DNA from: Hericium rajendrae
Taxonomy: Eukaryota > Basidiomycota > Agaricomycetes > Russulales > Hericiaceae
Length of the DNA: 64,000 nucleotides
Reading direction: 5' to 3'
NCBI GenBank assembly: GCA_033439255.1
Contig: CM065887.1
Location: forward strand, 496,001-560,000
Under the pieces are notes generated by a model. The model was not told the DNA's origin, made no database searches, and saw nothing but the letters and a program-made list of their open reading frames with translations. Shown here in pieces: positions 8,845 through 20,761 of this stretch. The stretch's first letter is position 1, and each line of letters begins with the position of its first letter. The position numbers and the translations under genes are program-made.

Positions 8845-10826
8845 CTAGGCCTGGGCCTCCTCGAGGTCAGGCAAGGGCGTCCATCTCATCCTTCCACGCA
8901 GCCATAGTGCGACGTAACTCAGTGACAGCAGGACCGGAACCTCGATCAAGGGCCCAAGCCTGTAGCAGAAAAGGGGGTCAGAAGGGCGTCCTATGAGCAA
9001 CATGGAAGAGCGGCGGCGGCACCCACGTCGCTGCGAGGACTTCGGGTGATTCGGCCCCAAAGCTGGCTATTCCGACCGCGATCGCGAGCTCGAACTGTGC
9101 GCCATAAGTCAGCCGAGAGACGGACCGATAGCTTAGGGAGTCGGATACTCGCGTTATTGGATCCGGCGGTGAACGCCTGCGTCACGGCCTTGTCGTACCC
9201 GCCCATCGTCGATCCTCTGCGCGAGCGGGAGAACGCCCAGAAGGCGAAGAAGGTCGACGTCCAGACGATGGAGAAGTACAGAACCAGTCTGCGAGCTTCG
9301 TCAGTAGTCCGTACCGACTGGCCGACGATGCACGCACGGTATGCAGATGCGGAAGACGGAGCCGATGTTGTCTATGATGCGTTTGCCCTGCAGGTGGTCC
9401 GAATGAGACTTGATGTGGAGAAAAAAATCACGAGTTGCATACCTGGTTGGCGAAGAGCACTATGATGGTGTATAGGAGACCAAGGACTGCGACGGGGCCG
9501 AAATAAGCAAAGAACCGCCGGACTCCTGCAGGCTTGAGGAATTTCAGCACGGCAAGCCTGGTTAGCATTCCTACCGCAAGGGGGATGCCAAGGTACTGTA
9601 GGGATCCATGATGAACCGTAGCAAGATGGACAATATAATGACCAAACTGACGATGCCAACCGCACGAGCGGCTTGTGAATAGCTCAGCTGGAGAGCGTGA
9701 CTCTCCGCATTCTGGCCGCCGCCGAAATGGTTGAGAAAGAGTGCGGCGTACGGTGCAAACAGGACCATCTGCAAGCCTGTGAGTATGAGCCGCAATGATC
9801 GTCGGTGAGACTGAGTATAACAGCACCTGGAGCAGAGAATTGAAGACGACAAGGATGGCACAGTAGTTGGAGTCTCCTTGGCTGATCGTATTCCAGATGA
9901 GTACCATGGCTGTCTTGTGTCAGACGTTGATAGTACAAGTTAGGGACTGGAAGCCTACCAATGCAACGCGCTGACCCGGTCATATGAGTATAGCCTCAAG
10001 ACATATGGGTTGATGTACTGACCGACGCCGACAAGCAAGACACCCTTGCGCTCGCGCTCAAGCGAAGCTTCCGGGAGTGTTGCCCAAGCAACACCCAGCA
10101 TAATGAAGGGGGCGAAGATCCAATTTAGAACGAACGATATGCCAAGGTGGATCCATATCCCGCCTACGATTCGCAAGTCAGGATATTATCTACGCTGAAG
10201 AGAGGTAGAATACGCACGGGAACGGAAGAGGGTCGGAAGGCGCTCCCATTGTACTTTGGCCAGTGCGGGCCATATCATAACCAGTAGTCCTACCAGTATT
10301 GCTGTTCGTGATCAAACCAAGTGCTGAGTATTAATTCCAGTCGGCGATGGAGCGAGCTTACGAATGGAGACGCCTTCCCAATTCGCGCTGCCTTGGAATG
10401 CACGTCTCACACCGTCCTCCTTCGATGGACAAGGTCAGATATAAGCGCATAATGACGGGATACGCACAGCGCAGACACCGATGACAATTCCCAAGATCAT
10501 AGCCAAGAGCACCAGAGGTGCGAGCAGCCGGTCGAGAAGACTCAACGACTTGAAGAGCTCTAAGTAGACAGAGTCAGATGACAAGGCAAAATCCGGTGAC
10601 ATATAAGATGAGAGAAGTACATACGCCAGGCCGTAGGGGGAACATGAGTATTCGCGGTCTCGACGGTATTCGGTGAGTCCAACTCCTTCAGACCTTCGCA
10701 GAAATTGCAGTCGCGTTCCGCCTTGCAGGATGGCTCGAGCAGATACACTGGATCCTGAATATCCCGCACACCGGTAGAGGGCATGCTAAGTGTCGAGCGA
10801 AAGGCTGGAGGAGGGGATGGAGACAT
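8845..10826 (-). CDS. ACR3: Arsenite efflux transporter ACR3
   Basis: Plasma-membrane exporter of arsenite (BASS superfamily, ACR3 class) with about ten membrane helices. Thirteen exons rebuild a 435-aa protein: 10625-10826, 10468-10559, 10362-10416, 10218-10301, 10023-10163, 9959-9970, 9827-9909, 9652-9768, 9443-9595, 9338-9387, 9153-9288, 9027-9094 and 8845-8959. Phases agree at every junction. Family motifs seen are FKSLSLLDRLLAPLVLLAM, GIWIHLGISFVLNWIFAPF, ARCIAMVLIWN, YLGIPLAVGMLTRL, YDKAVTQAFTAGSNN joined to FELAIAVGIASFGAESP, and LGPLIEVPVLLSLSYVALWL. The conserved Cys of ARCIAMV falls in a 12-nt exon. The intron at 9095-9152 starts with GC. The start of exon 3 could be 10416 or 10419. 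The gene is divergent from the rhodanese gene across a 178-bp promoter. Confidence 0.95.
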
Positions 10827-10869
10827 ACCTGCGAATCGGCAGGCCTGTTTTAACCTACATGTTGTGGAA

Positions 10870-10930
10870 GTTTGATTTTGACTTTGAATTTGATTATCAA
10901 TTTGACTTCGATTTTGATTTGGACTTTGAG
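10870..10930. promoter_or_regulatory. Imperfect TTGAYT hexamer array in the ACR3/rhodanese promoter
   Basis: About ten 6-bp units run head to tail (TTGATT, TTGACT, TTGAAT, TTGATT, ATCAAT, TTGACT, TCGATT, TTGATT, TGGACT, TTGAGA). They occupy a third of the 178-bp space between two divergent starts. The centre holds the palindrome TTGATTATCAA. The yeast arsenic regulator Yap8 binds a TGATTA...TAATCA-type site, so the resemblance is suggestive. Related units occur upstream of arsM and of the bZIP gene. The regulatory role is inferred. Confidence 0.5.
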
Positions 10931-11004
10931 ATAATGCATGCTGGACACCTTGGTGTCTGTCCAGCTATACGCCATCTGTGCGACGTCGACCAACAATCAT
11001 CATC

Positions 11005-11510
11005 ATGGCTGCACGTTGGTACGATCTTTTCCCCGAACCAAAGTCAAAACCGGAGTACATGACCGTCAAGGAACTGCACTCACTCTTGAGCGCAGAAGGC
11101 CTGGATCCAAACGAGTCTAGTTCCATACTTGTCGTCGATGTGCGTAGGACCGACTTCGAGGTCAGTCGCCCACATCTTGTACTATGCCGTGTCTCTAATC
11201 CCGATGTGCTCCGAACCCGTAGGGCGCATGCATCAAAGGAGCCATCAACCTCCCCGCACACTCATTCTTCCCCACGCTTCCCGCATTACTTCCTATCCTT
11301 ACACGCTACTCGAAAGTCGTGTTCCATTATGTCAGTTCGAATGGTCGGGGACCTCGGGTCGCAGGATGGTACCAGGACACACTGGATGCGCAGGGCATTG
11401 GTACGAGCAGGGCGGTTGTTTTGAAGGGTGGAATCAGGGCATGGTTAGAGAGATTTGGAGGGTCAGAATTGACTATTGAGTTGAAGGGCATTGATCTTGA
11501 AGCTTCATGA
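11005..11510 (+). CDS. Cdc25/Acr2-type rhodanese-domain protein (catalytic Cys missing)
   Basis: Single rhodanese domain of the Cdc25/Acr2/Ych1 group, which includes fungal arsenate reductases. Exons 11005-11160 and 11223-11510 give about 147 aa. Visible elements are the N-terminal EYMTVKELHSLL, the CH2A motif VVDVRRTDFEG, the KGAINLPAHSFFP segment, and the active-site region VVFHYVSSNGRGPR followed by AGWYQDTLD and VVLKGGIRAWLERFGG. Family members carry HC-X5-R at the active site. Here the codon is TAT (Tyr), so the nucleophile is lost while H and R remain. Its place beside ACR3 suggests an arsenate-reductase origin. Present activity is doubtful unless this base is a sequencing error. Confidence 0.85.
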
Positions 11511-11735
11511 GGATTGGCGCTGTGTTTTAGGTAGAAGGGAGCGGTCAAGCAAATCGAAAGCGATTGCTGGACGGCAGTGAACAAGTTGAAGGATGAACAA
11601 ATGACGTAAATCTACAAATATAATGTACAGGAAGGCTTGCGATGACTTGTGGTACACTGTATTCGGAGTAAGATGCGCGGCATACTTTAATGAAGCCAAG
11701 CGAAAAAAGGAAGCCCTCGACCTCACCGATGTATC

Positions 11736-12581
11736 TCAGCCAAACAAAGTCGAGCGATGTCCAGACATTCGCGGAACCGGTCGTTCTCCAGCGTGGGTTG
11801 TGTGAGCTCGAGATAAGGCATCCACATCCAACCCATCATCCTCCAATAAACCCCGACAGTCCAGTAAACCAACGCAGCATTGAGGGTCAGCCGGGTCAGA
11901 ACTCCATGATTGTGCATTCTGGTCCATAGACGGTTGGTTGGTGGAGGGATTCGCTTCTGGATCGGCAATTGACATTGGATGTGGTGGGGTGGGTGATGTT
12001 AATGAAGGAGGAGAAGTAGTGGTGGCAGATATGCTGGACGACGCATGGGAGGAGAAATAGCTGAGAAGCCCGGCGAGCTCGACATCCATAGTGCCGGGTT
12101 CGATGCTAGATACACGTCTGTTTTGTGATTAACGGGACGGCTAGAATAAGAGCATCTCTGCAAGCTTACTCGTTCTCATGAAGAGCTGATTTCGGCAGCT
12201 CAGAACGTGTGACACCCGTTGCCAACGCTATTTGTTTTTCTAGGCGTGAAAGCGACCCGGTGGTGCGAACAAGATTCTGCATAAGTTCCGCAGATGCCTG
12301 GATCTACAGGACAATTCAGCATACAATAGAATCGCACACATTCCCGAAGAACATACCATATCATGACCGAAATGCGAAACAGCAGAGGATGTCGAAGCGG
12401 CCTGTAGTTGGGCGCGAACATCAGCCAGTTCCTTGCAAAGCCCTTCATTCTCCGCCTCAGCTTTGCGACATCTTTCTTCGAGGTCAGCAAGACGCTTCGC
12501 CTTCCTGTCACGGTATGCACGTTGGAGAGTGAGAGATCGAGACGGTTGGATAGTGAGGTCCTTGCTTCTGCCTCTGGCCAT
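11736..12581 (-). CDS. bZIP transcription factor, candidate arsenic regulator
   Basis: Basic-leucine-zipper protein. Exons 12357-12581, 12170-12303 and 11736-12117 give about 246 aa. The N-terminus MARGRSKDLTIQPSRSLTLQ runs into RAYRDRKAKRLADLEERCRK and a zipper-like helix. The basic region has Ser where classical bZIPs carry the invariant Asn. From family memory this is the basidiomycete-specific type (RAL-x-QQRDYR-x-RKA). A second helix follows (IQASAELMQNLVRTTGSLSR), then a Ser/Pro-rich linker and a tail with CCVGLLDCRGLLEDDG. Three Cys in that tail could bind As(III), by analogy with Cys-based sensing in yeast Yap8; this is inference. The gene lies tail to tail with the rhodanese gene and is transcribed in the same direction as ACR3 and arsM. 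The C-terminal frame is chosen because of the CC-x5-C motif. Confidence 0.82.
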
Positions 12582-12599
12582 TGTACGCGGCAGAGATGT

Positions 12600-12622
12600 T
12601 AACATTCAAAATGATCAAATTC
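12600..12622. promoter_or_regulatory. Motif upstream of the bZIP gene resembling the arsM element
   Basis: The sequence around 12603-12621 reads ATTCAAAATGATCAAATTCG, 20-40 bp above the bZIP start. It closely resembles ATTCAAAATCAAAGTCAAAT upstream of arsM at 16365. A nearby GTGATTAAAG adds a TGATTA half-site. The link to arsenic control is inferred from the sharing of the motif. Confidence 0.35.
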
Positions 12623-12779
12623 GCGATAATCTTTACTCGTGATTAAAGTTAGTAATCTGGGCTAATCGATTCTGTGCGCTCCGGATTGCCTGAGCCTTTC
12701 TCTTCGCTCTCTGCGAGCCGCTCCGTCCTGCGAGCACGTCTCCGCGGGCCTTCCACCCCCGCGTCGAGCCTTTCTTCTG

Positions 12780-12905
12780 GTACGTCGTTTGCGTCCACGC
12801 GTCCGTGCGCTCTTACGCGTTCACCTCCGTGCGTCCGTGCGCAACCTTGCACATTTACCTCCGTAGGTCCGTGCGCGAGTTTGCGCATTTGCCTCCGCAT
12901 CCGTC
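12780..12905 (+). repeat. Diverged CCTCCGTGCGTCCGTGCGC minirepeats
   Basis: Four imperfect units of about 30 bp containing GTCCGTGCG or GTCCGCGCG-like cores plus TTTACCTCCGT or TTGCCTCCGC lie upstream of the bZIP promoter. They look like a small decaying tandem array. No function is apparent. Confidence 0.4.
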
Positions 12906-13979
12906 AGCTATAAAAGAGCAGCGGCGGTCAGTCAGCAGCATTCGATTTCTGCCCTCGACCGCCGCTCACTTTCAGTGCACGTTATTTGAGCACCTCTCCC
13001 TCCCACCCTTCTTGCTTTTATCTTTATTTTTTTTCTCTTCTTTCATATTATTTGCACAAGTACTATCATGTATTATCGTACGGATCGTTTCGCCGCAGTA
13101 CGATAATCTCATATTTTCCGCTCGGGCCGCCTATTTCCCGCACGTGCGCGGTGGGCGGCCGCGAACTCCCTATTTTTTGGTGTGCAGCGACTTCGTCGCT
13201 TTCTTTCGAGAGCTCCGTCCGCGCTTGCGTGCTGGAACGATTAGTGAGTACTGAAGCGCCTAAGATCTCGAGCGCCTATACAGCAACTCGAGCCTCGGCA
13301 CAGTTTTCTAACCATCTGTTTTTCCTTGTAGACCACCGTTTTGAACATCTAGTTTCTTTTTATCACGCTTGTGCGCGCCAGTGTCTTTGAGATGAAACCT
13401 GGTCAGAATATAATGCCGCGTCTATTTGGAGGCCATTCGTATATCGAGGTGAGCAATCTTGACTCCCAATATCCAGCCTCAGCTGGCCATCATTTCGACT
13501 AAAGGATATGATATCCCAACTTACATCCCCCGTCCTTCCAGAGTTATCATCATGAAGAGCGGCAGCTCCCTGCTGCTGTGCTCACTGGTGTCGCTATGAT
13601 CCGGTCTCTGGAGGTCGTTGAGCGGAGAATATGGGCCGAGCGTTGCCCAACCTCCAGCTTGATCACTCGATTTGCTACTCAAGAAGATTCAGTGGATGGT
13701 GCAGATTTCCAATGGCGGTACTAATGCAGACCGAGATGCTTTGCAACAGCTTGGTGTCTTGCATCGTCTACGAAGGGAAAGGACGATAATCCTCGGCGGC
13801 CTTGAAGCGGGTCGAGTCTTCAATTCGCAACTTCCTCAAGCCAAATATTAGTGTTGACTAGATGAGTGTCAAGTCATATCCACCCGTATTGCACGAACAA
13901 ATACAGACAGGGCCAATTGACCAGCATCTACACATATACCCTATCCACGGTATACAGCTGCCTGGATCAAAGTTCTGAG

Positions 13980-14790
13980 CCGTTATCGTTGGCATTGGCA
14001 TCAATATCTACGATGACCCGTCGATTCCGCGCCTCAGAGGATGCATCAACGACGCGCTCGCGATGCATGTATACCTGACGCTACGACTTTCTTCTGTGTA
14101 AGGTCTGCTCGGAGACTAATCTGACGCAGGATCTGCGCGTGCCGGCGGATCACATCTGCTTGCTCACCCAGAGCCCGAGCGACTGCCCACCTGTCTGGGC
14201 CTGGTTACCGCGCCAGAACATCCTGTCTAACCTTCGCATTCGCGCGGGCGACAACATGTTGATTTATGACACGTTCGCATACTACGCCCCCGACGCGTTC
14301 GGCAGCCCGCCGTGCGCATCGGCTCAATCGAGGCGCTGTGCCCACCTCCGATCGCTGAACCATATTCAGCCCTGATCCAGAGGACGACATCAGCGACCGC
14401 GAGATCAATGTGATGTTGCTGGGAAAGTTCTGCGACGCGAAGGGTCCCGACATCACGCTCATTCTTGACTGTTGTCACTCGGGTGGCATGGCGCGCGGTG
14501 GGCCTGTACCACGCTTTGCAGACCCGCTGCCGCTCGCGGCCGTGCTGCGCGCGGCGGACATGGTTTTTCGCCACTGGCCTGCGAGAGCAGGCGCATGTAC
14601 GCGGGACTGTGGGGCTGGGATACGTCCGTGCGTCCTGCTCGCTGCGTGTCGGGACTATGAGCAAGCGTACGAGCTGCTGGCGACGTCATCGGCGGACGTG
14701 CGGGGTGTGTTCATGCGTGTGTTGCTCGAGGCGCTGCGGTGGTCTGGGGGCAACACCACGTTTGCCGGTCTAGTGAGACTGGTGGGGTGA
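13980..14790 (+). pseudogene. Caspase-domain (peptidase C14, metacaspase-like) relic
   Basis: Remains of an Agaricomycete caspase-domain gene. Recognisable pieces are IVGIGINIYDDPSIPRLRG, then CINDALAMHVYLT, a splice to DLRVPADHICLLTQ, RAGDNMLIYDTFAYYAPDAF, GSIEALCPP in another frame, DREINVMLLGKFCDAKGPD, ITLILDCCHSGGMARG and LLAACRDYEQAYELL. The catalytic Cys motif DCCHSGG survives. The expected catalytic His block (YAGHGS) is replaced by YYAPDA, and the frame changes between the His and Cys halves. Truncation and frame breaks point to a pseudogene. It sits between the bZIP and arsM genes and has no evident role in the arsenic cluster. Confidence 0.7.
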
Positions 14791-14937
14791 AGTTGGGCGG
14801 GATCCAGCATCCTGTGATTGTGGGCGACCGGCGGGGATATCGAGTGTGGTTTTGATGCGAATAATACTCATTGACCAAATTGTTTTGAATTCAGCGATTG
14901 GTAGGTCTTGTGTTTCGGACTGAAGTTGCTCATTTTT

Positions 14938-15090
14938 TAGATTCGATACCCCAGTTTGATCGTACCACCGACACGGAGAAGCAAAATGATTACAGCGTGG
15001 TATGGCATTGGTAGTTAGATGCACCTAACCCAAACGTCTCTAGTTTCTTGGGTTCGATACCCCAGTGTGATTGTACTACCAACAGAAAAT
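14938..15090. repeat. Pair of short direct repeats with a T-loop-like core
   Basis: Two diverged copies of about 30 bp share TTCGATACCCCAGT, followed by GTGATTGTACTACC in one copy and TTGATCGTACCACC in the other. They sit at about 14940 and 15052. GGTTCGATACCC resembles the B box of tRNA-derived sequences, but no tRNA fold is present. They may be short retroposon remnants. Confidence 0.3.
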
Positions 15091-15132
15091 ATATTTGTTC
15101 CACCATCTTGCAGGCTCCGCCGCACAAGCGAA

Positions 15133-16200
15133 TCAAACATAAGGTACATCACCGAAGGCACCGGAAGGTTTCATGGCATAGATTGAGTATGATGCTGGTC
15201 AATGCAATATCCTCAGGATCTGCGGACGTCGATTTTAGGTTATATCCATGACTTACCCACAAGCTCGTTGACATCAATAGAGGGACGTGGCAGTCCGTTG
15301 GAGGGCGTTGCGCAGCCGCTACTGACCATGCCGCACGCAGCAGACTTAGAACCGCCGCAATTACTGTCATTGGTAGCGCTGTTGAACCAGACATTGAGGT
15401 CGGCTTTCTTGTCAACCATGAACACGTCTGGCAAAGGATTAGAATTGCGATCATGCCCGGTTATGTGTTAGAACGTCTGGCTTACCCTGGAATCCGGCAG
15501 CATGCAAATTGTCTTCATACACTGCCTTCGTGACTGCGCCGCCGATGCATCCCGCGTATGCGACGAAGTCGTTGCGAACGTGCTCGGGTAGCTCCCGCTT
15601 CGCTACGATGTCCTCCAGCGCCAGGCGACCTCCCGGCTTGAGGATCCTATAGACTTCCTTCATTACCAAAGCCTTGCCTTCAGGTGGCAGCAGGTTGATG
15701 ACACAGTTGGAGATGACACAGTCAACCGTGCTTTCCGCGAAGGGCGGGTTGGGGAAAGGCTCTGAAAGCGAGGCCTTGACGAACATCACCCGCGGCGGAA
15801 AGTGGCCAAGCTTCTTCGCGTTAGCCTCAGCCCGGGCCAGCATGTCCTACGACAGAGTCATCAGCTGTGCGCGCAATTCAGTATCTATATCATGATACCT
15901 ACATCGGAAACATCGATGCCGATAGCTCTGCCGGTTGGGCCGATCTTCTCTGCTGCGAGAAACACGTCCACGCCACCACCGCAGCCAAGGTCAAGAACGA
16001 CTTCACCCTGATGACCATTCTCAGTGAGTAAGAAGATATTCCGGAGGGCGTGTAGTACTACCAACCTTCTTCAATTTCGCCGTCGCGGTTGGGTTCCCGC
16101 AGCTAATACCCATGTGCGACCCATCAGGGATAGCTGCGAGCTCTTCGACAGTATAGCCAAATGCTCCAGCGACGCGGTTGGCATGGTCTGGAGACACCAT
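15133..16200 (-). CDS. arsM: Arsenite S-adenosylmethionine methyltransferase (ArsM type)
   Basis: SAM-dependent enzyme that methylates As(III). Exons 16066-16200, 15903-16007, 15486-15846, 15257-15427 and 15133-15194 give about 277 aa in one frame. Motifs in order are [97 protein letters not shown] and YAGCIGGAV. The Cys of GISCGNP, SNCVINL and YAGCIGGA correspond to the three conserved catalytic cysteines of ArsM enzymes. The C-terminus adds a Cys-rich loop ([20 protein letters not shown]) and ends [18 protein letters not shown]. The first ATG of the likely transcript, at 16243, opens [16 protein letters not shown], which resembles an ArsM N-terminus but is one base out of frame with the rest. 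The internal ATG at 16200 is used here. Confidence 0.9.
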
Positions 16201-16303
16201 CGCGTGCAATGGCGCCGTAAGTATTATCGACAACAGATTGCATGTAGCGCTTCAACTGCGAGTGAGAGGGAAAATTTTGATGAACGAAATGGATTGTAGC
16301 ACC

Positions 16304-17073: not shown

Positions 17074-17704
17074 TCACTCGTCTAGATTGATTGCGCTCCC
17101 GAACTTCGCGTACAGCGCGACTTTCAACTCCTTCATGCCCCGTTCGCAATCTTCTGCGCTACCGGTCAGCTTTGCGATTTCTGCGTTCAGTTGCTCCTCG
17201 TCCGCTTCTAGCCTTTTCATCGCTTTTGAATGCGGCAGATGCAAGAACGCCTCGCCAATCTTATATCTGCATGTAGATTAGCCCGGATGAGTTCCTCAGA
17301 TAATTCAGAAGGAATGTTGGACGCATACAAGACGGGCTCGTCCTCATCCGCGAGCTCAAGTTCCGTCGAGAGATCATCCAATGCCTCCTTCTCTTGCTAT
17401 AGGGTGCCAATAGGTATCTGCATCATTGCTATCCGTGAGAATAAAGAAAAAGAATCACGCACCTTCAGTTCTTCCAGCTTCTCCTCAATAGAGCGCATGC
17501 GCGTGTTCAACTTCGAGAAAGAGTTGATCCGTTGCTGATCCTCTGCCCACGCTCGTCAAAGACAAAGCCAGCCGTAATCTCAAGTGGAACACACCCCAGG
17601 TTACCTCCGTATCGTCAACCTCCTCTTCCTGTGCTAACTGATGTGTGGGATGACATCAATATATTAAATCAAAAGGAGTGGTTGGGAAGACACACCATGC
17701 GCAT
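17074..17704 (-). CDS. GIM3: Prefoldin subunit 4
   Basis: Beta-type subunit of the hexameric prefoldin chaperone, which hands nascent actin and tubulin to the cytosolic chaperonin. Five exons (17696-17704, 17595-17637, 17463-17542, 17329-17396 and 17074-17266) give 130 aa, the usual family length. The first coding exon encodes only M-R-M. Seen in order are EVTWEDQQRINSFSKLNTRM, an N-terminal coiled coil (SIEEKLEELKQEKEALDDLS), the linker DEDEPVLYKIGEAFLHLP, a second coiled coil (KRLEADEEQLNAEIAKL), and the ending LYAKFGSAINLDE, the family signature. The fourth intron, starting GTATGCG at 17328, removes a segment that would otherwise break the reading frame. Confidence 0.92.
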
Positions 17705-19232: not shown

Positions 19233-20761
19233 ATGGCATTTCGTGGCAACCTGCACAGAAATTTCGGAAAGTTCGGTAATCATTTCGGATGCCACTATGA
19301 CAAGGGGAACATAGAGAAGGATGAACATGCGCATCTTGAGAATTTGGTGAGACTGCAGAGGAATTTGAGGCTCGTCACGAATACTTCAGTCGTTACCCAA
19401 ATAATAGGGCAGAGATACGGTGAGGAACCTCGCCCAAGCCAATTTTTGCCCGCTGTTGACTGGCATTTAGATAACGCCTTCGTGAACCGGCTGCAGAGCT
19501 CCTTGGAACGATGGTTATAATTTTATTTGGGAACGGTGTCAACTGCCAAGTAACCCTTGGTTCCAACCCGGATGTGTCTCCCACCCCGAAGGGTGATGAT
19601 TACTTATCGTTGAACTTCGGCTGGGCTTGTGGTATGGAGACACTTTATTATTGTGGCTGAACGTGCTTTGGTAATCTCTGGAAGGTATTGCTTGGGTATT
19701 GCCCTCGGCATCTGGGTATCTGGTGGCATCTCTGATGGATATCTTAACCCCATGGTGAGCTTTCGGCGAATGCCCGCTATACGAAACGAACTGTAACTGG
19801 CAGTCAGGTCACGCTTGCTTTGGCCGTTTTCAGGGGCTTTCCCTGGTGGAAGGTCCCCGTCTTCTGGTTCGCGCAACTTGTTGGTGCCTGGTTTAGCGCA
19901 ATGCTTGTGTTCGCCAAATATTTCCATGCCATCGTATTTGAGGGAGGTAGAGGCCGGCGATCGACTCCTGGAACTGCCTCGCTATTCGCCACTTATTTCG
20001 TAAGTTTCATTGAAGTTTTTGAAGCAGCAAATTTCCCTAAAAAATTCGATGCAATGTCTATCTGTCATACCTGCCATCTGCAAACTGTTTCTTCGACGAG
20101 ATACGCATTTACCTCGGTTTCTTGCCCGGTTTTCCTCGTTCCTGATGGACCACTGGTCTAGTTCATCGGTGTCTTTATTGTTATCCTTCTCGTTTTCGCT
20201 GTGACAGACAAGAGAAACAATCCACCTGCGCCTGGTATGGTGCCTGTTGCCCTCTTTATTCTCATTCTCGGAATTGGTGCGGCCTTCGGTATGCAGACAG
20301 GTACGCACGTGTGCACAATCATTGTTTATATTGCTCACAATCACTCTTCGAATCAGGTCACGCTGTCAATCCAGCCCATGATCTGGGCCCTTGTATCATG
20401 ACAGCTATGATGGGTTATGGCAGAGCGGGTGCGTTGGCTTTTTCTGTCGCGTCGTGGTCCCGAGCTTGACCCCAATTGCCAGTAGTATTCAACTCCCGCA
20501 GGCAAACTGGTTATTTTGTCCCATCCTGGGTTCCTTCTCTGGTTATCTCGTTGATGCTGCAATCTACGATGCTCTCCTTTTCCTTGGAAGTGAGAGTTGG
20601 ATGAACCGACCGTACGTACCTCTTTGTATGCCGAGAGTGCACAGCTCATCGTTCCTTGATCCTTCAGGAACGCGGCCGCTCGCAGGCACTTTGCTCACGC
20701 CAGGACGGCTGAGCACCAGCGCCCTCCTGCTGGTTTCTCTCAAGACGACAATGCCGTCTGA
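19233..20761 (+). pseudogene. Aquaglyceroporin (major intrinsic protein) pseudogene
   Basis: Remains of a six-helix MIP channel of the fungal aquaglyceroporin type. Matching pieces are EEPRPSQFLPAVDWHLDNAF, MVIILFGNGVNCQVTLGSNP, GIALGIWVSGGISDGYLNP, TLALAVFRGFPWWKVPVFWF, SANCFFDE, FIGVFIVILLVFAVTDKRNN, GMVPVALFILILGIGAAFGM and WLFCPILGSFSGYLVDAAIY. The C-terminal exon ends at 20761 (FSQDDNAV). Lesions: the helix-1 region is shortened with a frame change near 19497; the frame breaks around 19685; the intron after CFFDE begins AT instead of GT at 20098; and the two NPA boxes read NPM and NPAH. In the second box His replaces the selectivity-filter Arg. MIPs of this class can carry arsenite, which would fit the nearby cluster, but this copy appears dead. 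Confidence 0.75.

Follow-up and report, generated by a model that had tools for sequence, protein, structure and literature searches.

The 64-kb stretch of the Hericium rajendrae genome analysed here (the window), part of contig C10 in a 46.77-Mb assembly of 19 contigs, carries four neighbouring genes with predicted functions in arsenic resistance: an ACR3 arsenite efflux permease, a rhodanese of the Acr2/Cdc25 type, a bZIP-like regulator and an ArsM arsenite methyltransferase. Together they span 7.4 kb (Table 1). All gene models were spliced across short introns of 48 to 67 nucleotides, with GT-AG boundaries except for one GC-AG intron in ACR3. The ACR3 and rhodanese genes are divergent across 178 bp, the bZIP-like gene adjoins them, and a gap of approximately 2.6 kb, occupied by a long terminal repeat (LTR)-type repeat and unassigned sequence, separates the bZIP-like gene from ArsM. 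Genome searches for the SBF family and for the rhodanese, bZIP and ArsM proteins (E <= 0.001, only the best candidates being scored) returned matches confined to this locus. The four genes form a genuine arsenic-resistance cluster in which ArsM is added to a layout like that of yeast ACR2/ACR3/YAP8, and two of its promoters, those of ACR3/rhodanese and of ArsM, contain a tandem element built of TCAAAR hexamers. No paper on this cluster or on the tandem element was found among the top-listed results of searches of the open-access literature.

Table 1. Features of the arsenic-resistance cluster, in window coordinates
Feature	Position	Strand	Description
ACR3 arsenite efflux permease	8845-10826	-	13 exons, 436 aa, no stops; spliced model and TIGR00832
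Degenerate hexamer array, TTTGAY on + / TCAAAR on -	10871-10929 (59 bp)	.	9.8 copies; Tandem Repeats Finder (TRF); divergent ACR3/rhodanese promoter
Acr2/Cdc25-type rhodanese	11005-11510 (exons 11005-11160, 11223-11510)	+	147 aa; spliced model
bZIP-like regulator	11736-12581 (exons 12357-12581, 12170-12303, 11736-12117)	-	246 aa; spliced model
LTR-type dispersed repeat	~12633-13245	.	69-84% identity to copies on other contigs; no member of the system, though located in the bZIP promoter
ArsM arsenite methyltransferase, open model	15133-16200 (exons 16066-16200, 15903-16007, 15486-15846, 15257-15427, 15133-15194)	-	277 aa, 5 exons
Upstream ArsM-like piece	16201-16243	-	ATG at 16243; resembles V-x3-Y-x3-A motif, frame differs from rest of ArsM
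Exact element TCAAAATCAAAGTCAAA	16368-16384	+	124 bp upstream of ATG 16243; 167 bp from ATG 16200
Two-unit copy TCAAAGTCAAA	16574-16584	+	330 bp upstream of ATG 16243

The predicted ACR3 protein is intact. It scored 308.5 bits against TIGR00832 (curated cut-off 282.8), with positions 1-327 of the 327-position profile covered, and all three SBF matches in the genome fall within its locus. The spliced model holds GVARCIAMV, part of which is encoded by a 12-nucleotide exon, and thus includes the Cys of the P/R-C-T/I-AMV motif that is described as a feature of ACR3 (PMC12860867; this and the other papers are cited for the passages concerned). The GC-AG intron, the sole non-GT intron among the models, lies at 9095-9152 (GCGAGT...CACAG).

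The rhodanese matched PF00581 at 32.8 bits (cut-off 22.2) and, among PDB entries, YGR203W and Cdc25, which indicates a rhodanese/Cdc25 fold by sequence. In alignments with YGR203W and Cdc25, its HYVSSNGR falls on the HC(X5)R loop, with Tyr replacing the catalytic Cys; in the five alignments shown, from 14 matched sequences, three have HC at this position and two, which are PDB entries, have HS. The protein is not called an Acr2 arsenate reductase here because the catalytic Cys of HC(X5)R is not found, and arsenate reduction by it is doubtful. Searching the genome with the rhodanese model yielded three further exons, one of which reads ILVFHCEFSFKR, is Cdc25-like by eye and keeps HCX5R (HCEFSFKR). 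In fission yeast, Cdc25 may act as an arsenate reductase according to PMC3422283, and therefore reduction need not depend on the rhodanese of the cluster. If this interpretation is true, a Cys-less Acr2 homologue on the ACR3 promoter is a warning against annotating arsenate reductases by similarity only.

The bZIP-like protein gave a weak match to bZIP_1 (18.8 bits, below the cut-off of 27.6), and a paralogue search found one further match in the genome, at E 1.07. In a weak alignment with 7aw7 (E 0.078), Ser occupies the position of the usual Asn and Leu that of the second Ala; several further DNA-contact residues differ, judging from this alignment and from passages of PMC3865217. The C-terminal CCVGLLDC forms a Cys-Cys-x5-Cys arrangement. 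Recognition of a new site, for example the TCAAAR array, is conceivable for this protein, as is a loss of function in progress. The edge of the LTR-type repeat lies 51 bp upstream of its start codon, within the promoter. Copies of this repeat are present on several contigs, with two pairs approximately 4.8 kb apart, and a 34-bp tandem repeat is located inside it at 12823-12897.

The best family for ArsM was NF008823, at 224.3 bits (under the curated cut-off of 263); in the PDB it matched arsenic methyltransferases best (E 9e-27). Two cysteines, one within CG(N/L)P and the other within C(I/V)xGA, are kept and align with those of 12 out of 12 prokaryotic relatives, taken from 91 matched plasmid records. 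All 12 likewise carry a V(R/K)xxYxxxA segment toward the N-terminus, which is not in frame in the Hericium gene. The upstream piece that resembles this motif occupies the expected position in a different frame and has a low profile score of 5.0 bits; in a control with 1000 shuffles of a 25-residue piece, 8 scored higher and one was equal among the rows shown. The cluster had initially been annotated as ending at 16243; the ATG there is not in frame with the rest of ArsM, and the open model starts at 16200. Thus, the N-terminus of ArsM is probably disconnected, or else translation begins at 16200 without the N-terminal motif. The ArsM proteins of ascomycetes and basidiomycetes are reported to group with bacterial ArsM (PMC5398495), and a planctomycete source has been argued for fungal ArsM (PMC5552862). 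Unlike the fungal ArsM genes taken to derive from bacteria, this one sits in an ACR3 cluster and shares a promoter element with it. A scan of prokaryote genomes for ArsM returned four weak loci.

Within the degenerate array of the ACR3/rhodanese promoter, an exact three-unit core occupies 10871-10887 on the minus strand. The pattern TCAAANTCAAA matched six times in the window, each time in the ACR3/rhodanese promoter or upstream of ArsM, as compared with a mean of 0.09 matches (largest 1) in 100 dinucleotide shuffles. The exact form TCAAARTCAAARTCAAA (TCAAAR three times) is found at three places in the whole genome: in the promoters of ACR3/rhodanese and of ArsM, and at C4:2014193, upstream of a gene for an ABCC-type transporter. 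The expected count is 0.015-0.108 for Markov models of order 0-5, which were fitted to 173 kb of the genome, including the window, after masking of the motif centres at 30 selected loci. When the ambiguous position was relaxed to N (TCAAANTCAAANTCAAA), five matches were obtained at four places, and none in the backward control. The elements lie at similar distances from three start codons: 124 bp for ArsM (ATG 16243), 125 bp for the ABCC gene and 111 bp for the rhodanese (counted from the four units at 10871-10893). Of the evidence for the element, the stronger part comes from scanning the whole genome and from the third site. Being rare and shared, the element suggests that the cluster genes and the ABCC gene are switched on together.

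Looser forms of the element are more frequent. Three units with one mismatch matched 17 times (five in the window, one at the ABCC gene, and 11 more at 10 other places, two matches overlapping) versus 4 times in the control, and the 13-mer AGTCAAAATCAAA was found at six genome places versus none in the control: the ACR promoter, the ABCC gene, a DUG1/CNDP2-like gene and three others. The Cys-Gly dipeptidase DUG1/CNDP2 is an enzyme of glutathione turnover, and a one-mismatch copy of the element (C2:927438) lies 268 bp upstream of this gene. It was not counted as a member of the regulon and was retained as a lead only, near copies being too frequent and three of the AGTCAAAATCAAA places having no recognised link to arsenic. 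A site of the Yap8 type was rejected as the element of the cluster: the TGATTAATAATCA-like Yap8 response element (Y8RE), searched as TGATTA.{1,3}TAATCA, had no exact match in the window, where TTAGTAA is found once (12649), inside the LTR-type repeat. On the 5' side of the bZIP-like gene, TTCAAAATGATCAAATT contains two TCAAA units at another spacing and was not counted as an element; autoregulation of this gene was set aside.

Several claims of the initial annotation can now be judged together. Its four-gene arsenic cluster holds as to the genes, their single genomic location and their extent of 7.4 kb, but the rhodanese lacks its catalytic Cys and ArsM has a probable frame break at its 5' end, and a detoxification role is doubtful for these two of the four genes. 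The naming of an Acr2/Cdc25-type rhodanese is justified by fold and PF00581 score, although not at the catalytic position, where Tyr is found; the supposed bZIP regulator is a bZIP-like gene beside the divergent ACR3/rhodanese pair, but its bZIP_1 score is under the cut-off. The description of the locus as an "extended" arsenic island is borne out by the presence of ArsM within the ACR3 cluster and by the element common to the ACR3/rhodanese and ArsM promoters.

The third exact element precedes by 125 bp an ATG that opens the ABCC gene on the minus strand of contig C4, the start and first exon having been read by eye. The second exon matched MRP4 (2e-6 over 60 residues) and YCF1 (approximately 7e-4, chain positions 85-264), and the C-terminal exon matched MRP1 best (2.7e-21), with ABCB proteins next (approximately 3e-20). 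Because ABCB proteins follow MRP1 so closely at the C-terminal exon, the assignment to ABCC rests mainly on the N-terminal part. Only the gene itself was matched in a paralogue search with one exon. The putative product has ABCC matches near the N-terminus and in the C-terminal nucleotide-binding region, which may correspond to the N-terminal TMD0 region and the second nucleotide-binding domain in the ABCC build of YCF1 and MRP proteins. Yeast YCF1, which transports metal-glutathione conjugates into the vacuole under the control of Yap1, is described as part of the arsenic response (PMC6545440); unlike it, the Hericium gene is unlinked and is tied to the arsenic cluster solely by the promoter element.

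The yeast ACR2 and ACR3 genes are divergent with YAP8 adjoining, and Yap8 is described as their master regulator (PMC6545440). The Hericium cluster resembles the ARR1(YAP8)-ARR2(ACR2)-ARR3(ACR3) arrangement of S. cerevisiae in having ACR2-type and ACR3 genes that share one promoter in divergent orientation, beside a bZIP gene; it differs from it in the addition of ArsM, in a rhodanese without the catalytic Cys, and in a different tandem element that is also present at the ArsM and ABCC genes. Like Yap8/Arr1, the bZIP-like protein is encoded beside its putative targets and has the conserved basic-region Asn replaced, by Leu26 in Yap8 and by Ser in Hericium (PMC3865217). Yap8 is reported to depart from the usual residues at both the Asn and the second Ala position (Leu26, Ser29), and Leu26 together with Asn31 to narrow its specificity (PMC3865217). 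Unlike in Yap8, the counterparts of Arg22, Gln25 and Arg27 appear not to be kept, as read by position from the 7aw7 alignment and the published description of Yap8. Yap8 uses Cys132, Cys137 and Cys274 (PMC6545440), three arsenic-responsive residues that may be set beside the CCVGLLDC of the Hericium protein. A parallel of another kind is provided by the Starship elements of ascomycetes, for which a captain recombinase and element ends are the hallmarks. Arsenic-resistance genes at one fungal locus are known from Starship cargo (PMC11623301), and the likeness of the Hericium cluster goes to that extent.

The interpretation that we favour, with a probability of about 0.6, is that of an arsenic-resistance cluster with a dedicated TCAAAR promoter element, partly eroded. 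A thiol-bearing factor would sense arsenite, the likeliest candidate being the adjacent bZIP-like protein with its Cys-Cys-x5-Cys, and this factor would act through the TCAAAR element to switch on ACR3 for export, ArsM for methylation and the ABCC transporter for sequestration of glutathione-arsenic. The element supports one putative regulon for export and methylation, and probably for sequestration. Erosion of the cluster would be manifested in a rhodanese that, without the catalytic Cys, should not reduce arsenate by known chemistry, in an ArsM protein that probably lacks its N-terminal segment or is incorrectly produced, and in the LTR-type repeat located in the promoter of the bZIP-like gene. 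A different enzyme would then have to reduce arsenate, for instance the Cdc25-like protein in which HCX5R is kept. Agaricomycetes are reported to have ACR3 ubiquitously, and in a 2026 study of Hebeloma, differences between promoters were proposed to govern the strength of the ACR3 response to arsenite (PMC12860867). With a candidate element located at three sites of one genome, this question of the ACR3 promoter becomes directly testable. If true, one element tying export, methylation and ABCC-mediated sequestration together extends the yeast Yap8/Yap1 picture, and what may be new here is a candidate arsenic element that ties three routes of detoxification in one fungal genome.

A number of observations weigh against this interpretation. 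The element was first noticed by eye and tested afterwards, so the figures given for it carry selection. The two-unit form TCAAAGTCAAA is common, with 112 matches in the genome versus 44 in the backward control; some matches (30 contexts viewed, 100 of the 112 listed) are in repeat-like contexts, and TCAAAR arrays could arise by slippage. No arsenic gene was recognised by eye at the fourth TCAAANTCAAANTCAAA place (contig C7) or at the seven viewed of the ten one-mismatch places elsewhere, and no arsenic link was recognised at three of the six AGTCAAAATCAAA places. One of the one-mismatch matches sits in a bHLH-type coding frame, and two of the places outside those seven (contig C3) are in repeat-like contexts. 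The tie of the ABCC gene to the putative regulon consists of a single extra site before a start codon assigned by eye. Finally, the exact tandem element was not found in the promoter of the bZIP-like gene itself, the product of which lacks several of the DNA-contact residues important in Yap8, and the factor that reads the element may not be the bZIP-like protein of the cluster.

Several rival explanations were considered. The one with an appreciable, though minority, chance of being correct is that of a decaying island in which ACR3 is the sole working member and the rhodanese, ArsM and bZIP-like genes are heading to loss. The Tyr in the rhodanese active site, the out-of-frame motif of ArsM, the loss of the usual basic-region Asn and the proximity of the LTR-type repeat to the bZIP start codon all agree with decay, whereas the modelled frames remain open through all introns and ArsM keeps its two key cysteines just as its 12 relatives do. 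As a description of the present state of the cluster, decay is compatible with the interpretation of a dedicated, partly eroded system. That errors of assembly or consensus produced both the Tyr codon of the rhodanese and the frame break of ArsM in two normal genes seems rather unlikely. There is one assembly only, and each oddity is a very small difference in an otherwise intact gene, but two separate errors would be needed within one cluster.

A microsatellite-like or repeat-derived nature of the hexamer arrays, with no regulatory role, is also unlikely; it would leave the cluster real and co-regulation not implied. The array of the ACR promoter consists of degenerate tandem copies, and the two-unit form is over-represented and sometimes repeat-like in context; yet the exact three-unit form exists at three places only, each before a gene of arsenic type, with start-codon distances confined to 111-125 bp and an N-form control of zero. 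We regard as improbable, in its full form, a regulon in which the TCAAAR element is read by the unusual Asn-less bZIP protein and couples export, methylation and vacuolar sequestration, the Cys-less Acr2 homologue being non-catalytic and perhaps an arsenic-sensing partner. A chance neighbourhood of the four genes, for which only the gap of repeat and unassigned sequence before ArsM speaks, is rejected because each gene was matched, among the best candidates scored, at one locus only in 46.77 Mb, all four lie within 7.4 kb, and two of their promoters share a nearly unique element.

Other features lie between and beyond the cluster genes. The dead caspase gene of the initial annotation was not substantiated: window positions 13950-14860 contain ILDCCHSGG and similar words, which we take to be caspase-like and which may be a remnant, but none of the pieces tested matched a Pfam family at E <= 0.1, and the PDB gave one unrelated match (E 1.2). 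Past the ArsM promoter, the next gene is represented by an exon at 17074-17277 on the minus strand that resembles prefoldin subunit 4 by eye. The aquaglyceroporin that had been annotated beyond the cluster was recovered at 19475-20401 as three pieces that match MIP, the aquaglyceroporin family; one piece scored above the cut-off.

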